Part shown: positions 9,991 to 26,307 of the stretch, in pieces
How positions within the stretch are numbered: position 1 is the stretch's first letter
How the letters are laid out: each line of letters opens with the position of its first letter
Virus record (IMG/VR): IMGVR_UViG_3300003631_000006
Coordinates: 1 to 39,679 of that record
DNA: 39,679 bases
Direction: 5' to 3' (one strand)
Source: a virus
Position numbers and translations under genes: made by a program
The notes under the pieces: generated by a model
The model's input: the letters and a program-made list of their open reading frames with translations, nothing else
Databases searched by the model: none
What the model was told of the DNA's origin: nothing

Positions 9991-10592
9991 ACAACAAGAA
10001 GAAGATTCTAGCCACATTTCTAATCGCCGCAATCGTAGCTGTTTCAGGCTGCACAGACAACACAGACAAATCATCGAACAACCTAGCCAAAAACTCAGGT
10101 ATCGACGTAGAAGATGTCGTGCCCGGAACCGCCTTTCTTGCTGAGATGAAATCGACAGAGAAAAACCAGCAAGGCCTAATTAAGAAACGGCCGATTCCGA
10201 AGATGGATGACAGCTTGGAAAGACAGAACCTTATCAAGAGATATGAGACCTTGAACGATCAAAACGAAGTCTTCCACGTCTACCTGATGAGCCACGGAAA
10301 GGTTGTCTCCTACTTCACAGCACAAGGCAAAGTCAGCTCTGTCAACAGCAAGTTGACCCAGCCACAACAACTTGTTCCATGTCAGAGAGACGGCACGTAT
10401 GGCGGCAACGAAGAATGTGTTGTAGCTAGTCCTCAGCTTGACGGAAGCTACGGAACCAACGGAAACGGAGTATTCTTCTACACCACAGACGGTTCCTATG
10501 TAGAATGGAACGGAGAATACGTTGTCAGCGAACGTCCTTTAAGCATTCAGACACCGCTTTCGCTCGAAGCCGAAGTCAATGTCAGCCAGTAG
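9987..10592 (+). CDS. Viral lipoprotein
   Basis: This 201-residue protein has a classic lipoprotein signal: basic MNNKKKI, hydrophobic LATFLIAAIVAV, then a SGC lipobox with Cys near residue 22 and a Ser/Asn/Asp-rich linker. The mature part is beta-rich and repeats Gly-Thr-Tyr-Gly patterns (RDGTYGGNEE, LDGSYGTNGN, TTDGSYVEWNG). Its start overlaps the membrane coiled-coil gene by ATGA. It is probably exported and anchored on the outer face of the host membrane. A surface-modifying or superinfection-exclusion function is inference from location. Confidence 0.65.
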   Translation: MNNKKKILATFLIAAIVAVSGCTDNTDKSSNNLAKNSGIDVEDVVPGTAFLAEMKSTEKNQQGLIKKRPIPKMDDSLERQNLIKRYETLNDQNEVFHVYLMSHGKVVSYFTAQGKVSSVNSKLTQPQQLVPCQRDGTYGGNEECVVASPQLDGSYGTNGNGVFFYTTDGSYVEWNGEYVVSERPLSIQTPLSLEAEVNVSQ

Positions 10593-10630
10593 AAAAAACC
10601 TTTTTAACCTTTCTTTTTCCTTTTATTTAT

Positions 10631-11548
10631 ATGCTTCGACAACTACTACGTAAAACCAGAAATGTTCTCAACCAACTTAAAAACAGGTTAGCCGCACCAC
10701 TACACATGGCGGATCGACCCGAACACACCCACGAAATAGAGCGGTACCTAGACGGAGAAGACCGCCGCCACTACCAGCAAAACCAACACGACGTATACAG
10801 CGTAACCACGATACTAGACGAGCTTGACACCGGCGGAGGCGAAGGACTGAAATGGTGGAAAAGACACAACAACGGCGAAGGAGACAACCCTGACTGGCAA
10901 CACATACTAAGCTACAAACAAGACCGTGGAACACTCGCCCATCACGCAGCAATGGCTGACCACTACGAAGCACTGAACGACGGCGAACAGCTTTGGAGCG
11001 ACGACGAAACCCGGTCACTGTACAGAGTCATGGACAACGCTAAAGACCAAGATTTCCTGTACAGTATCATGGCCGACAGGGCATGGGTAAACAGTCGAGA
11101 AAGCTTCGAAAACACGTTGCAGGAGAGAGAAAACATCGAATTAGACGAAATACTAGGCAACGACCTCGAATATTTCACCAACGAGTACGACAGAATCGCA
11201 GAAGAACGCGGAATCAACCCCGACACTTTAGAAGCTGTGGAAGAAATGTTTGTCGTACCTCCGAACGGGGAGCATGACGGGTACGGAGGACAAGCCGACC
11301 TAGTTTACCGAGATCCGACAACTGGTGGCGTAGTTGTAGCAGACCTGAAAACTTCTTCCGCAGTCAGAGATAAACACAAATATCAGGCAGCTGCATACGC
11401 AAAAGCCGTGGAGAAAAACAACGATCTTGATGTTGAGCGTGCGGAAATAATCAGGATCTACCCTGATGAAGAAGAATCCGAAGTCTATAGTTTCAGCGAT
11501 TTTAACCAGTATTGGAGCGAGTTTGCGGAAACCACGAAAGAAATGTAG
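10631..11548 (+). CDS. PD-(D/E)XK exonuclease, Cas4/RecB-like
   Basis: The 305-residue protein starts at the ATG at 10631, after T-rich promoter-like sequence; an upstream in-frame start at 10505 lies inside the lipoprotein gene and was rejected. The nuclease core is near the C-terminus: D223 in GGQADLVYRD, D238-L-K240 in VADLKTSS, then KYQAAAYAKAV, the QxxxY helix of RecB/Cas4-family nucleases. No four-cysteine iron-sulphur cluster is seen, so it is not a canonical Cas4. It is likely a recombination or end-processing nuclease acting with the helicase and XPF nuclease. Confidence 0.75.
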   Translation: MLRQLLRKTRNVLNQLKNRLAAPLHMADRPEHTHEIERYLDGEDRRHYQQNQHDVYSVTTILDELDTGGGEGLKWWKRHNNGEGDNPDWQHILSYKQDRGTLAHHAAMADHYEALNDGEQLWSDDETRSLYRVMDNAKDQDFLYSIMADRAWVNSRESFENTLQERENIELDEILGNDLEYFTNEYDRIAEERGINPDTLEAVEEMFVVPPNGEHDGYGGQADLVYRDPTTGGVVVADLKTSSAVRDKHKYQAAAYAKAVEKNNDLDVERAEIIRIYPDEEESEVYSFSDFNQYWSEFAETTKEM

Positions 11549-11594: not shown

Positions 11595-11756
11595 TCATTT
11601 CATCCTTCTTTTTAAGCGCCAGATTTTAGCTTTTAGCCAGTCGAAGATTGTCAATTCTTCTTTTAAAAGCCGTTTAATTTTCTTCTCGCTGTGGTATCTG
11701 TCTGTAATCTCCAGTACGCACGGCTTTTTCCCTCCATTCTCCCTGGATGTCGTCTC
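11595..11756 (-). pseudogene. Remnant of a reverse-strand coding region
   Basis: On the reverse strand a 53-codon open stretch has protein-like content (CVLEITDRYHSEKKIKRL ... IFDWLKAKIWRLKRRMK) but has no ATG or GTG start and follows an in-frame TAG. It ends in TGA overlapping another possible ATG (11598). It looks like the decayed tail end of the reverse operon that begins at 13153. Nothing else is seen in the 11549-11821 gap. Confidence 0.35.
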
Positions 11757-11821
11757 CTATCCGTAAGCTAGTGTATTTTGAGGTTATTATGCAAGGATTA
11801 ATAGTTTTCCCTGTTTGTGGT

Positions 11822-11878
11822 TCATATTATTTGTTCGGCGTTTTTAGATTCTAGCGCTCTCTCAATGTTCTCAGTCAT
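11822..11878 (-). CDS. Possible 18-residue peptide of the reverse operon
   Basis: An 18-codon ORF (MTENIERALESKNAEQII) has its ATG overlapping the previous stop. It continues the ATGA chain of this operon, but its size makes it doubtful. Confidence 0.2.
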   Translation of the reverse strand: MTENIERALESKNAEQII

Positions 11879-11964
11879 GTGAACCGCTTCTCGCCGTATT
11901 CTACCATGGTTTTGTTCGAAGTTCTGTTTTTCTGGTCGAATATTGAGTCTTCATGTTCTGTCAT
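11875..11964 (-). CDS. 29-residue peptide, paralogue of the 12231-12338 product
   Basis: Its ATG overlaps the stop of the upstream gene (ATGA at 11961-11964). The start, EDSIFDQK, matches EDSIFNQK of the 35-residue ORF at 12231-12338, and the DNA is 24 of 25 identical there (11928-11952 versus 12308-12332). This suggests a local duplication followed by decay. The function is unknown. Confidence 0.35.
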   Translation of the reverse strand: MTEHEDSIFDQKNRTSNKTMVEYGEKRFT

Positions 11965-12212
11965 TCTTGAGTACACCACTTTTCATATTCTTCTTTGTTT
12001 GCGACCTTTATCGTTCCTATGATGATTCCTCCTTCTTTTCTCTCAAGTTTTAGCTCTATGACTTTGAAGGTCTTAAAGGACGAGTATTTCTTGTCACTAT
12101 CTTCTGCTACATCGGTAAGGGTTGTACAGAGCTGTATGTCGTCTCCTACTTCTATTCCCTTGGCTTGTTCTTGTTCGACTGTGAACTCGTGCATCGTAAC
12201 TGAGCTATTCAT
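11961..12212 (-). CDS. Small beta-rich protein, unknown
   Basis: The protein is 83 residues from the ATG at 12212; a GTG at 12221 would add three. Visible pieces are GIEVGDDIQLCTTL and FKVIELKLERKEGGIIIGTIKV, which suggest a small beta barrel. It shows a weak resemblance in order to the C-terminal half of the 26293-26733 product (IEVGD, then paired strands, then an acidic aromatic tail). It is the fourth gene of the reverse operon headed by the pentapeptide-repeat protein. Confidence 0.6.
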   Translation of the reverse strand: MNSSVTMHEFTVEQEQAKGIEVGDDIQLCTTLTDVAEDSDKKYSSFKTFKVIELKLERKEGGIIIGTIKVANKEEYEKWCTQE

Positions 12213-12230
12213 GTCTATCACTTCCCATTG

Positions 12231-12338
12231 TCAAGTCTTCTCGCTTTTTTCCTCGATTTTTTCGGTTTTGAGCTCTCCGAAGTCTGCTGCGGTTTGGTCG
12301 ATCAAACTTTTCTGGTTGAATATTGAGTCTTCGTACAT
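12231..12338 (-). CDS. 35-residue protein sharing the TEKIEEKSE box with the 26293 gene
   Basis: The ATG at 12338 directly follows the TAA of the upstream gene. The product starts MYEDSIFNQKS and ends TEKIEEKSEKT. The 28 nt coding TEKIEEKSE (12240-12267) are identical to 26650-26677 in the same frame of a gene 14 kb away. It could be the truncated 5' part of a copy of that gene, with 11961-12212 as the rest, or a peptide kept for the shared motif. Confidence 0.5.
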   Translation of the reverse strand: MYEDSIFNQKSLIDQTAADFGELKTEKIEEKSEKT

Positions 12339-12629
12339 TTATTTTTCCCCTCTCTCTTCATCGCTGTCCGTGAAAAAATATTCGGCACATTTACTAGGCT
12401 CTTTAACTATCTCAATACTGTCAACATAATCAGCAGTCATGTCAAGAAGTTCGTCCTCTGTCTTCCCGAAAATATCTCCTTCTTGGATGACTAAAGAAGT
12501 TTTATGAAGCGCTCCAAGTCTGTCATCTACAGTTACAACGAGGAATTCTGAAATCTTGTTTCCTTCTTCGTCTTTGGCGAGTATTATGTCCCCGTTACCG
12601 GCTTTTCTCGGTTCAGATTCTTCGGTCAT
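12339..12629 (-). CDS. Small acidic protein, unknown
   Basis: The protein is 96 residues from the ATG at 12629, which overlaps the stop of the pentapeptide gene as ATGA; a longer start at 12677 was rejected because it overlaps that gene by 50 bases. The middle is beta-rich (GDIILAKDEEGNKISEFLVVTVDD, broken by Gly) and the C-terminus is acidic. No family is recognised. Confidence 0.6.
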   Translation of the reverse strand: MTEESEPRKAGNGDIILAKDEEGNKISEFLVVTVDDRLGALHKTSLVIQEGDIFGKTEDELLDMTADYVDSIEIVKEPSKCAEYFFTDSDEERGEK

Positions 12630-13153
12630 TGTTCTTCTGCCTCTTTGTCTTCTATTTTTTGGCCGCAGCATTCGCATGTCTCAGGCTCTTCTTTGAATTC
12701 GATTTCACTATCAAGGCATTCATACAAGCTGTTGTTTCTTCTGCCTTCAATACTTCTGCATTTCAAGGATTTGCGGCTGATACAGAAAGCGTAAAAAGAA
12801 ATATTGTCTGCATCTATATTCCCTGCATCAATATTCCATGCATCAATATTCTCTGCATCAATATTCTCTGCACCAATATCCAGCGCATCAATATTCCCTG
12901 CATGAATATCCGCTGCATCAATATTCTCTGCATCAATATTCCATGCATCAATACTCGCTCCATCAATATCCGATGCATCAATACTCGCTGCATTAATATC
13001 CGATGCATCAATACTCTCTGCATCAATACTTCCTTTTACTGTTAGATTGAAGTTTCTTCCATCCTTGCAATAGATATTGCCGTGGACTTTAATACTTTCT
13101 TTAAAGGTTTTGTGCTCTTCCAATACTAGGTCATCTTCAAAAACAATTGTCAT
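12626..13153 (-). CDS. Pentapeptide-repeat protein with C-terminal zinc knuckle
   Basis: The 175-residue protein starts at ATG 13153 (MTIVFEDDLVLEE). Residues about 45-125 are about 16 consecutive five-residue repeats with I-D-A at fixed places (ENIDA, WNIDA, GNIDA, SDIDA), the pattern of a right-handed quadrilateral beta helix. C-terminal CECCGQK is a probable zinc knuckle, also found in the 17732 product (CDCCGQK). Pentapeptide proteins such as Qnr and MfpA mimic DNA and protect or inhibit gyrase. Whether this one does is unknown. It leads a reverse-strand operon of tiny genes. Confidence 0.75.
   Translation of the reverse strand: MTIVFEDDLVLEEHKTFKESIKVHGNIYCKDGRNFNLTVKGSIDAESIDASDINAASIDASDIDGASIDAWNIDAENIDAADIHAGNIDALDIGAENIDAENIDAWNIDAGNIDADNISFYAFCISRKSLKCRSIEGRRNNSLYECLDSEIEFKEEPETCECCGQKIEDKEAEEQ
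12806..13032. repeat. 15-bp tandem repeat array coding the pentapeptides
   Basis: Units of 15 bp (plus strand: GCATCAATATTCTCT and variants) are repeated about 15 times. They are in phase with the five-residue repeat of the reverse-strand protein. The units are near-identical at DNA level, so the array could expand or shrink by slippage. Confidence 0.85.
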
Positions 13154-13187
13154 TATTTCTGCACCAATACAACAAAACACGTGTTAA

Positions 13188-13200
13188 ACTTTTAAATAGC
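13188..13200 (+). promoter_or_regulatory. TATA box for the 13219 gene
   Basis: ACTTTTAAATAGC is 26 bp before the ATG at 13219, giving a leaderless start. The TTTAAA core is symmetric and may also serve the divergent reverse gene at 13153. Confidence 0.6.
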
Positions 13201-13218
13201 TTCCGCCCATACAAAGCT

Positions 13219-13575
13219 ATGGGAAAATACAAGACAAGCATAGACAACCAATCCGTTACAAGCAGCGGCGGCACACAAACAGGTTCCAAAGTAACCGTAG
13301 ACGATAGAGACACAATCGCAGTACAAGTAGAAGGCGACAGCGACAGCTCAAACTTCGACCTCGAACTCCAAGGAAAAAACGGTGCAGAAGCATCAAACTA
13401 CGGAGACATAGACACCACAAGCTACACAGGCCAAGACATCACAAACAACACAAACCAATCAAAAATATACTTATTCGACGTCTCAGGCGTAGCAGACATC
13501 AAACCAAAAATCGTGAACAACGCAGCATCAGACACGACCATCACTGTTACGGTCGGCGTAGACCTCAACAACTAA
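13219..13575 (+). CDS. Small beta-rich structural-type protein
   Basis: The 118-residue protein starts MGKYKTSIDNQS. It is Ser/Thr/Asn/Asp-rich and beta-like (VTVDDRDTIAVQVEGDSDSS ... TTITVTVGVDLNN). It precedes the beta-helix spike by 6 bp and shares its promoter, so it may be a spike base, capsid decoration or fibre component. An upstream in-frame start at 13147 lies before the TATA box and was rejected. Confidence 0.6.
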   Translation: MGKYKTSIDNQSVTSSGGTQTGSKVTVDDRDTIAVQVEGDSDSSNFDLELQGKNGAEASNYGDIDTTSYTGQDITNNTNQSKIYLFDVSGVADIKPKIVNNAASDTTITVTVGVDLNN

Positions 13576-13581
13576 AAACAG

Positions 13582-14781
13582 ATGACAGATCGCGCACCCG
13601 GCCGCGCACCACGCGGATTTCAACTACCTAGAACCGAAAACCACAAAATAATCAGAAGCAGCAACGACCTGCCCGGAACCACCAACGGCAGACACCAATT
13701 AAAAGACAACACCATCTACGAATTCGCAGGGTTCGTAACAAGCCCTCACGGACTCGAACTAGGCAACAACACACCGCTTACAGGCCGGTTTGGGAGCAGC
13801 GACGGATTCATCTGTACAGGTGGCGGCCCAGCAATCTACGGCCGTGGCAGCGGATTCTTCATGTCAGACATGTACGCACACGCCCCCGGCGGAACCATGT
13901 TCGACCTGCAAGCAGATATAACCACCGAAATGCTTGTATACGACTCAGCGTTCAGCGACGCAGCAGGCATCGCAAACATAGCCGACATGGGTACGATCGA
14001 CGGGTTTAGAGTACCGTCATTTAAAGGCTGCAACTTCGAAAACTTTGACGCAGGAATAACATTTACAGGCGACAGCGACAAAGTGTTCTTCAGCAGCTGC
14101 CCGTTCAGAGGGGTGGAGGCTTCAAACGTAGTCGTCCTCGACTTCGATGCCAACAGCAACATCGGCATCGTAGATATTACAGACTGCTACGTAAAAGGAG
14201 TGCAGAGCGACACAGAAATTATCAACGTCGACGCATCCAGCCTACCCGACACCATACTACAGTACCGTGGAACAACCCACGACAGCACCGTTACACGGTC
14301 AAACATTATCAACGGCGGAGTCTCCGAAGACAGTAAAGGCGTAGCAGTACGCGACAGCTTCCCCCTTCCAAACTCCAAAGTGACCGGAGACCTTTCTCTC
14401 AACTCTCCGACAACCGTTACAGGTTCAGGCGCCGCACCAACCCAGATCGCAGGGTCAACCACTTTAAACAACTCGATAAGAACACTTAAAGCAGCAGAAG
14501 GAGTAATCCAGTACAACAGCAAGTACCAAACACTTGACAAAGTATTCGGCAACGTATCCGTAACAGGTATCAACGGCGAGTTCGCAATATGGCTGGCAAA
14601 AAACGGGTCAATCATTCCAAGAACTAAATCGCTCGGATTCGCAGCAAACAACAGCAGCGCCTTCGGAGCATCAATCTCAGGTACTTTAGACCTGCAAGAA
14701 GGCGACACCGTAAGCATGTACGTGGAGAACGTCGGCGGCAGTTCAGACGTAACCATTGAAGAATACAGCCTCAACGTATAA
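13582..14781 (+). CDS. Beta-helix spike/receptor-binding protein with jelly-roll-like C-terminus
   Basis: This is a 399-residue protein. Residues about 45-250 show regular short strands and turns with N-G-G, F-D and D-G steps typical of pectate-lyase-like beta helices (FKGCNFENFDAGITF, VDITDCYVKGVQ). Residues about 290-399 (VFGNVSVTGINGEFAIWLAKNG ... LDLQEGDTVSMYVEN) look like the C1q/TNF-like trimerising domain found at the ends of viral fibres. It lies outside the main virion cluster, as accessory spikes often do. It could be a second host-binding protein besides the tail adhesin. Confidence 0.65.
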   Translation: MTDRAPGRAPRGFQLPRTENHKIIRSSNDLPGTTNGRHQLKDNTIYEFAGFVTSPHGLELGNNTPLTGRFGSSDGFICTGGGPAIYGRGSGFFMSDMYAHAPGGTMFDLQADITTEMLVYDSAFSDAAGIANIADMGTIDGFRVPSFKGCNFENFDAGITFTGDSDKVFFSSCPFRGVEASNVVVLDFDANSNIGIVDITDCYVKGVQSDTEIINVDASSLPDTILQYRGTTHDSTVTRSNIINGGVSEDSKGVAVRDSFPLPNSKVTGDLSLNSPTTVTGSGAAPTQIAGSTTLNNSIRTLKAAEGVIQYNSKYQTLDKVFGNVSVTGINGEFAIWLAKNGSIIPRTKSLGFAANNSSAFGASISGTLDLQEGDTVSMYVENVGGSSDVTIEEYSLNV

Positions 14782-19732: not shown

Positions 19733-19812
19733 AGCTAATGTACATTAGCTAATGTACAATAGGGGGGGTAATGTACATTAGCTAATGTACAATAGGGGGG
19801 TAATGTACATTA
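19733..19812. repeat. 33-bp operator/iteron-like repeats with TAATGTACATTA palindromes
   Basis: The perfect palindrome TAATGTACATTA occurs at 19736-19747, 19769-19780 and 19801-19812, spaced 33 and 32 bp. Each of the first two is followed by a half site (TAATGTACAAT) and a run of seven or six G. The first copy sits inside a longer palindrome (AGCTAATGTACATTAGCT). The array is behind the reverse promoter of 19489-19698. It could be repressor sites or origin iterons. Confidence 0.8.
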
Positions 19813-24729: not shown

Positions 24730-26307
24730 ATGCATGATCCAACCTCGGAAGTACGTACATGGCAAGATATTAAAAACAGTTGCGGAGTAGAGGACGAAGA
24801 CCAGCTTAAATACTTGGCTTCTAAAAACTTTGAATTCTTCATAGAACACGTGTTAGGTTTGAACACTGATTCGCCGGTTATCCAAAAGTCGATTGATTTT
24901 CATCAGAACCCGGAGAAGTACAAGGAAACCGATGAGCATATGGACTCTGTTAAAGCAGCGATCATGGCGCCGAGAGGGCATTCTAAGACTTTTTCGTGGA
25001 CGATTGCACCTATTTTATGGGTTTGTTTCAGCGAACACGGCAAGGAGATCATTCTATCCTCTGCTTCGCATACACAGAGTAAAGACATACTTAAAGATAT
25101 TAAAAGAATTATCAAACGTAACGAGATGCTGCAGCATTTAGAGTCTTCGACTGAAAATCTTGAAGAGCTTGATGCCGACATCAGCAGCGAGGAAGGAGCA
25201 TGGAACAAAGAAGAAATAACCACTACTACAGACGTACAAGTCAATATTAAGACGTTCAGCGACAGTATTCGTTCTAGCCACGTTGATTACGTGTTTTTGG
25301 ACGATGTGCTTAGTAATGATATGAAGGTTGAGAAGGAGAAAGAGGTTTTTTACAGTACGTTGACACCGATTGTTGAGAACAGTGGCGGCCTGCTTCAAAT
25401 AGTCGGTACACCGCTTGAGTATAACGACTTGATGATGGAGTTGATGGATAAGGACTCGTTTTATTCTGAGCGTTACCGTGCTTACGACCCTGAGACGAAG
25501 GAGGTTTTGTGGCCGGCGTTGTGGAGTTATGATTCTTTGATGGAGAAGAAGGCGGAGATTGGGCCGGGCAAGTTTGAACGTGAGTACATGACTTCGCCGA
25601 TGTCGATCGATGAACAGTTCTTCTCAAACGAGATGATTGAGTCTTCGCTTGGCTCTGATTGGATGCACAACCCGAACAAGGAGGAGCGAAGCAACTGGAT
25701 GTACGTTCTCGGTGTGGACATCGCCCTCTCTGACAGCAAGGATGCGGACTACACCGTCTTCACCGTTCTAGGGGTAGCCCCGTCTGGGGAGACACACCTT
25801 GTTAATTTGCAGCGTGAGCGAGGTATGTCGCCGACCAGTATTGCGGACAAAATCGATGAGCTTGACGAGTTCTACGGTTTTTCTAAGGGCTTGGTTGAGA
25901 AGAATGCTATCGGCGAAGGTGTTTGGAAGACAATCAAGAATAAGTGCCGTGTGACTGGACGTGTGGAGCCTTTTGATACGACGCGGAAGACCCGGCCGGA
26001 GATTCTCAGCAGTTTGCAGGCTGGTTTGAATCGTGGAGAACTGCTTCTGCATAGTCATGACGCTTTGATGCGTGAGATGCGCGGTTTCCACATGAATAGC
26101 AAGGGTAAGTTGGTAGGCCGCGAGCATGACGACACAGTTATGTCGTTGGCGATTGCTTATCGTTGTGTTGATGGTGGCGGTGTTGATTCGTCGATGAGTA
26201 TTATAGGCGGAGAAGAAAATAAAGGAGGAAATGAAGAGGGCGTGGATGGTATTGTCGGCGGTGATTCTGGTTCTGGCCGGAATGATTTCGACTTAGGAAT
26301 TGTCTAG
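24730..26307 (+). CDS. terL: Terminase large subunit
   Basis: The protein is 525 residues from ATG 24730, which is 28 bp after TTTTTAAATAG; a GTG at 24724 is less likely. It is the packaging motor: A80-P-R-G-H-S-K86-T (Walker A of the terminase type), V188-F-L-D191-D192 (Walker B), then the RNase H-like nuclease with D330 in LGVDIALSD, E390 in VEKNAIGEG and D467-D468 in REHDDTVMS. It cuts and pumps DNA into proheads through the portal. Codons change from A/C-ending to G/T-ending after about 25300. The last bases overlap the convergent reverse gene at 26293. Confidence 0.92.
   Translation: MHDPTSEVRTWQDIKNSCGVEDEDQLKYLASKNFEFFIEHVLGLNTDSPVIQKSIDFHQNPEKYKETDEHMDSVKAAIMAPRGHSKTFSWTIAPILWVCFSEHGKEIILSSASHTQSKDILKDIKRIIKRNEMLQHLESSTENLEELDADISSEEGAWNKEEITTTTDVQVNIKTFSDSIRSSHVDYVFLDDVLSNDMKVEKEKEVFYSTLTPIVENSGGLLQIVGTPLEYNDLMMELMDKDSFYSERYRAYDPETKEVLWPALWSYDSLMEKKAEIGPGKFEREYMTSPMSIDEQFFSNEMIESSLGSDWMHNPNKEERSNWMYVLGVDIALSDSKDADYTVFTVLGVAPSGETHLVNLQRERGMSPTSIADKIDELDEFYGFSKGLVEKNAIGEGVWKTIKNKCRVTGRVEPFDTTRKTRPEILSSLQAGLNRGELLLHSHDALMREMRGFHMNSKGKLVGREHDDTVMSLAIAYRCVDGGGVDSSMSIIGGEENKGGNEEGVDGIVGGDSGSGRNDFDLGIV

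Follow-up and report, generated by a model that had tools for sequence, protein, structure and literature searches.

By its sequence, the 175-residue protein P0001 is the haloviral member of a family of small capped proteins, predicted to be β solenoids. Our preferred reading, whose chances we put at somewhat under even, is that it works early and inside the cell as a binder, with a fast-diversifying ladder of residues directed at a putative host target. The family is apparently undescribed and carries no name in the libraries searched. The gene was found in an entire IMG/VR virus record of 39,679 bases (the window), which includes terminase, portal, major capsid and tape-measure genes. An earlier note had placed it in a salt-adapted archaeon, and salt adaptation of the virus is borne out by the proteome, which is acidic overall, and by the exonuclease (a metallophosphoesterase), whose nearest kin are in haloarchaeal viruses, with Halorubrum virus VOLN27B at 31% identity. 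Searches of viral contigs with TerL and MCP recovered zero relatives. Scans for Rfam families, tRNAs and sigma-70 promoters gave nothing, or matches at chance level only.

P0001 (12,626–13,153, minus strand) heads six minus-strand ORFs of 175, 96, 35, 83, 29 and 18 residues that lie head to tail at 11,822–13,153, as their coordinates confirm. The cassette is placed between a recombination-type exonuclease gene and a divergent tail-fibre-like gene, and it does run against its neighbours, since both flanking genes (10,505–11,548 and 13,219–14,781) are on the plus strand. The start coupling that had been claimed is present: the junctions are ATGA (1/2), TAAATG (2/3), an 18-nt gap (3/4), ATGA (4/5) and ATGA (5/6). 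The longest chain of ATG-initiated ORFs (18 residues or more, spaced by −4 to +20) is six here. Dinucleotide-shuffling the 2-kb region 100 times gave a chain of five once and otherwise at most four; shuffles of the whole window gave a chain of seven in 1 of 30. A codon-usage model trained on the large genes of the window and scored per frame favored frame 0 in all six ORFs (0.30 to 0.70 bits per codon), and other frames scored at or below 0, except for one value of 0.17 (18-residue ORF). These data support a real, translation-coupled operon. The notion of an accessory-type cassette of small genes is supported too.

The five small proteins beside P0001 are orphans, and their ORFs, all on the minus strand, are supported by codon usage. 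P0002 (12,339–12,629) is an acidic protein of 96 residues whose start overlaps the P0001 stop; family-library and homologue searches gave no family or homologue, and its single-sequence structure model was poor (pLDDT 62). The 35-residue P0003 (12,231–12,338; 0.70 bits per codon) begins MYEDSIFNQK. P0004 (11,961–12,212; 83 residues) had no homologue in family-library and homologue searches. The 29-residue P0005 (11,875–11,964) begins MTEHEDSIFDQK and overlaps P0004. The 18-residue ORF (11,822–11,878) overlaps P0005 through ATGA and has a score of 0.56 bits per codon across its 18 codons; whether it is real is uncertain given its short length. PADLOC returned zero matches for the five ORFs of at least 29 residues. 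A 25-bp direct repeat (24/25 identical, 96%; none expected by chance) occurs at 11,928–11,952 in P0005 and 12,308–12,332 in P0003. Its copies lie right after the two starts and in the same frame (EDSIF[DN]QK), and it is likely to reflect a recent partial duplication. Such a repeat could be a coding duplication or, alternatively, a common regulatory site. A 17-bp repeat (94%; 11,743–11,759 and 12,132–12,148) places a fragment of the GDDIQ segment of P0004 again downstream of the operon, perhaps as a decayed copy. The divergent intergenic region (13,154–13,218) may serve as a common archaeal promoter, and it contains a TATA-like TTTAAA core that could serve either direction.

P0001 consists of an N-cap (residues 1–41), 16 five-residue units (41–120), a C-cap (about 118–155) and an acidic tail (about 158–175). 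The units, of which about 16 had been foreseen, place isoleucine at residues 43, 48 and so on to 118, and are encoded by a 15-nt tandem array at 12,800–13,033 on the minus strand (TRF, 15.5 copies). The zinc knuckle that had also been described was overstated. The acidic tail carries one CxxC (CECC), near the C-terminus; of the relatives checked, only two share a CxxC at that place with P0001. A single cysteine pair cannot by itself complete a zinc site. Pfam, NCBIfam and PADLOC offered no credible family for P0001; NCBIfam matches to SDR, phage hub and Gp58 models were dismissed as low-complexity. No paper with the repeat motif was found in the literature.

Direct homologue searches with P0001 against viral contigs, genome contigs and phages failed, and the probable cause is low-complexity masking of the repeats. 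Relatives were instead found by scanning DNA with a degenerate pattern that spans three A-x-[DN]-I-[DN] units and leaves x free; it matched 48 stretches of viral contigs and 19 of genomes. About 50 related ORFs were recovered from contigs of tailed phages, from mobile elements and from a small number of DPANN archaeal genomes. The family repeat criterion is at least three consecutive A-x-[DN]-I-y units, and P0001 has 16. Nearly all viral ORFs, and about half of those in genomes, share a short N-cap, repeats and a conserved C-cap. We regard these relatives as one family because both caps are conserved. Cap profiles were built from the relatives without P0001 and compared with 200 shuffles. With the profile of the conserved C-cap (I-x-[YF]YA-x-C ... 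C-x-SI-x-G-x-R ... CLD-x-E), P0001 scored 64.3 bits against 9.3 for the best shuffle, and with that of the conserved N-cap (D-L-x-L ... F-x-E-S-I-x-V-x-G) it scored 35.6 against 6.8. As the caps alone recognize P0001, its kinship is independent of the low-complexity repeats, and the profiles provide a way to find a family that such filters hide from ordinary searches. The novelty anticipated in the earlier note stands insofar as the libraries searched hold no name for the family, but the family itself is widespread in phages.

The N-cap subtype of P0001 also occurs in three phage contigs (L011, L017 and L049) and in Micrarchaeota and Pacearchaeota MAGs. A profile search found the family in 11 of 245 Micrarchaeota and in 1 of 279 genomes from the phylum of the Pacearchaeota MAG, a rare and patchy distribution. 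The family is likely to be absent from cultured phages; tblastn of the relatives against annotated phages gave nothing significant. Gene names at the archaeal loci (integrase, ribosomal) were read from the sequences unless a family scan is cited. In one Micrarchaeota MAG (G068), an identical family gene recurs at exact 25,989-base steps (C1:346956, 372945 and 398934; L099, L100). The 26-kb repeated unit, which also encodes very large proteins of membrane type and has a tyrosine-integrase-like ORF, is either an element integrated in tandem or an artefact of assembly. At two other Micrarchaeota loci (L062, L101), two or three tandem paralogues directly adjoin ribosomal protein genes, so some family members are chromosomal. 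Other short-repeat proteins, with CSDCSNC, ENASAVLW and classic pentapeptide repeats, adjoin the family gene in several contigs (L017:11008–11301, L002:10494–10727, L040:9144–9806 and L039:10561–11214), and the ORF at L050:22–1122 fuses the family solenoid to another repeat kind. It is as if short-repeat solenoids gather in one accessory region.

Structure prediction agreed with the β-helix fold that had been proposed. AlphaFold2, using an alignment of 41 rows, modeled P0001 as a β solenoid with a mean pLDDT of 94.1, continuous and with strands along residues 47–137. A Foldseek search of the model against the PDB gave no significant match. Among the candidates, the right-handed β helix of tapirin aligned over 152 residues (2.4 Å, Z 13.4). 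Left-handed helices (the acyltransferases GlmU and LpxA) reached Z scores of up to 15 with an rmsd of about 11 Å and were not taken as the fold. P0001 as predicted and the tapirin C-terminal domain (6n2b, 4wa0, 6n2c) are both right-handed β helices. However, tapirins are cell-surface cellulose adhesins of Caldicellulosiruptor and show about 10% identity to P0001, and shared function is not implied. As regards a four-sided right-handed solenoid, a solenoid is what was predicted, and pentapeptide proteins were absent among the matches listed, which is compatible with that fold.

Kinship with the pentapeptide proteins Qnr and MfpA, which the earlier note had drawn, was not upheld. P0001 shares with them a five-residue repeat, a (predicted) β solenoid, N/D at i−1 and an aliphatic residue at i. 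Capped and classic pentapeptide repeats even occur in one ORF (L050) or in adjacent genes (L039). Unlike Qnr and MfpA, the capped family lies outside the Pfam models, has a hypervariable i−2, alanine at i+2 and its own caps, and is not generally acidic. The Pfam pentapeptide models (PF00805/PF13599) gave no match to P0001 at E ≤ 1, while a protein neighbouring a relative matched PF00805 at 8.5e-39. Canonical pentapeptide repeats have a small residue (A/C/S/T/V) at i−2 and L/F at i. In P0001, i−2 breaks the canonical repeat, reading GESASAWEAGLEEWGD, and i is always isoleucine. Family-wide, i−2 is small in 35% and i+2 (Ala) in 94%.

P0001 has a net charge of −27, and an acidic rod of this kind could imitate B-DNA and so occupy gyrase or a restriction enzyme, in the manner of Qnr/MfpA, which bind gyrase with a DNA-like acidic surface and a C-terminal dimer. 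The predicted solenoid is consistent with this, as is a weak sequence similarity to a designed pentapeptide protein (4yfo, E 2.8e-6), although the latter is a low-complexity match. The acidity itself runs through the whole of this halophilic proteome, and most relatives lack it: the repeat domain carries −6.9 charges per 25 residues in P0001 against −4.3 to +2.0 in the relatives, whose repeats are in several cases neutral or basic and lined with Arg and Trp. Since strong repeat acidity is found in P0001 only and is not a family trait, mimicry is not supported as a selected property. With no Pfam match and the canonical small i−2 replaced by anything, we consider a DNA mimic or gyrase modulator improbable.

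The variable position x is codon 2 of the A-x-N-I-D unit. The search pattern leaves both x and the third base of the alanine codon free, so a contrast between them was not created by the search. Over 47 arrays, mean nucleotide entropy at x was 1.27, 0.85 and 0.52 bits (positions 1, 2 and 3), against 0.24 bits at the four-fold third base of alanine. For P0001 the x-codon entropies were 1.20, 1.84 and 0.00 bits, the third base being invariant. In 44 of the 47 arrays pN at the x codon exceeded unit-wide pS (ratio 2.06–3.56, bootstrap 95%); the arrays evolve in concert and hence are not independent data, so this excess is suggestive rather than a formal test. P0001 itself had a pN of 0.55 at x, a unit-wide pS of 0.10 and a whole-unit pN/pS of 2.21. 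Isoleucine and alanine probably form the core pair with x outside, given the residue pattern (i−2 hypervariable, i+2 small, and x freely W, R, G, E or L). Replacement in excess at this single exposed-type codon suggests that a binding face is under selection.

The arrays also change in length and order. Two near-identical viral contigs (L010 and L022) are 100% identical in the 1000 bp upstream, the N-cap and the C-cap, and the 19 differences within the gene are confined to codons 43–71. Unit number differs in three further pairs (L008/L025, L016/L028 and L013/L031) whose caps are 98–100% alike. An origin in a diversity-generating retroelement was considered but is not favored; several changes substitute an entire codon at once and resemble shuffling between units. 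Slippage turns over tandem DNA repeats even where selection is absent, as is expected of 15-nt repeats, and we attribute the turnover of the arrays to this process. P0001 might accordingly be a small structural or regulatory protein that functions through its caps, with the length and surface of its solenoid drifting as a neutral minisatellite. Caps far more conserved than repeats, and unit numbers that vary between near-identical viruses, are what such drift would give. It accounts poorly for the predominance of replacement over synonymous change at x, and for an x codon in P0001 that varies at bases 1 and 2 while base 3 is fixed; we think drift alone unlikely.

The genomic neighbours of the relatives bear on when and where P0001 would act. 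In bacterial phages, many relatives lie among genes for ERF annealing proteins, YqaJ exonuclease, DNA methyltransferases, primases and SSB, and the family gene is often ATGA-coupled to the downstream ORF; in the window, too, a recombination-type exonuclease gene is the neighbour. These early DNA-metabolism neighbours and the frequent coupling make an early intracellular role likelier than one in the virion. A virion role draws on the divergent gene in the window, which is tail-fibre-like, and on relatives near LamG or tail-like genes (L011 and L049). P0001 would then be a tail-associated binding rod, an adhesin or a bactofilin-like filament, and it has a cellulose adhesin, tapirin, as its best right-handed fold match and an N-cap (GDLxL...VxG) that recalls FapA/bactofilin (a weak FapA match in one relative). 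However, no signal peptide is apparent on reading the P0001 sequence, and the capped ends would argue against end-to-end polymers. PHROG tail proteins (phrog_26466, phrog_32822 and phrog_1330) have similar five-residue repeats, but these lie inside long virion-type proteins and align with P0001 in the repeats only, leaving the caps outside. We rate a filament or virion component as distinctly unlikely.

In the preferred reading, an intracellular binder, P0001 would be a rigid rod with pentapeptide-sized sides, closed by the conserved N- and C-caps. Isoleucine and alanine of each A-x-N/D-I-y unit would carry the core and x would point outward. The ladder of x residues would be altered by amino-acid replacement and by units being gained, lost or shuffled, with the caps unchanged, as seen in the relatives. 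P0001 would be made early from the putative divergent promoter, together with small partner proteins, and may bind stoichiometrically, its ladder gripping a molecule of the host. That molecule, most likely a target in defence or takeover, would be evolving to escape. The tandem copies beside ribosomal protein genes in some Micrarchaeota weaken this reading, as the function is then not only viral or anti-host. If the ladder is an arms-race binding surface, the family marks a host target that many unrelated viruses, in both domains, attack in common, and it provides a simple scaffold of natural origin whose specificity shifts one residue per repeat. A broader proposal is more doubtful: that these proteins are widespread, undescribed recognition rods of bacterial and archaeal viruses, kept by some DPANN, in which a fixed capped solenoid presents one hypervariable surface residue per repeat, is retuned by shuffling and selection to bind fast-evolving host targets, and so forms a natural modular scaffold.

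Two further repeats were noted in the window. The perfect palindrome AACACGTGTT occurs in the divergent region (13,176–13,185) and near the terminase start (24,845–24,854), two copies against 0.09 expected. A tandem repeat of TAATGTACATTAGCTAATGTACAATAGGGGGGG at 19,733–19,812, where genes are sparse, could act as a binding array or as an origin of replication.
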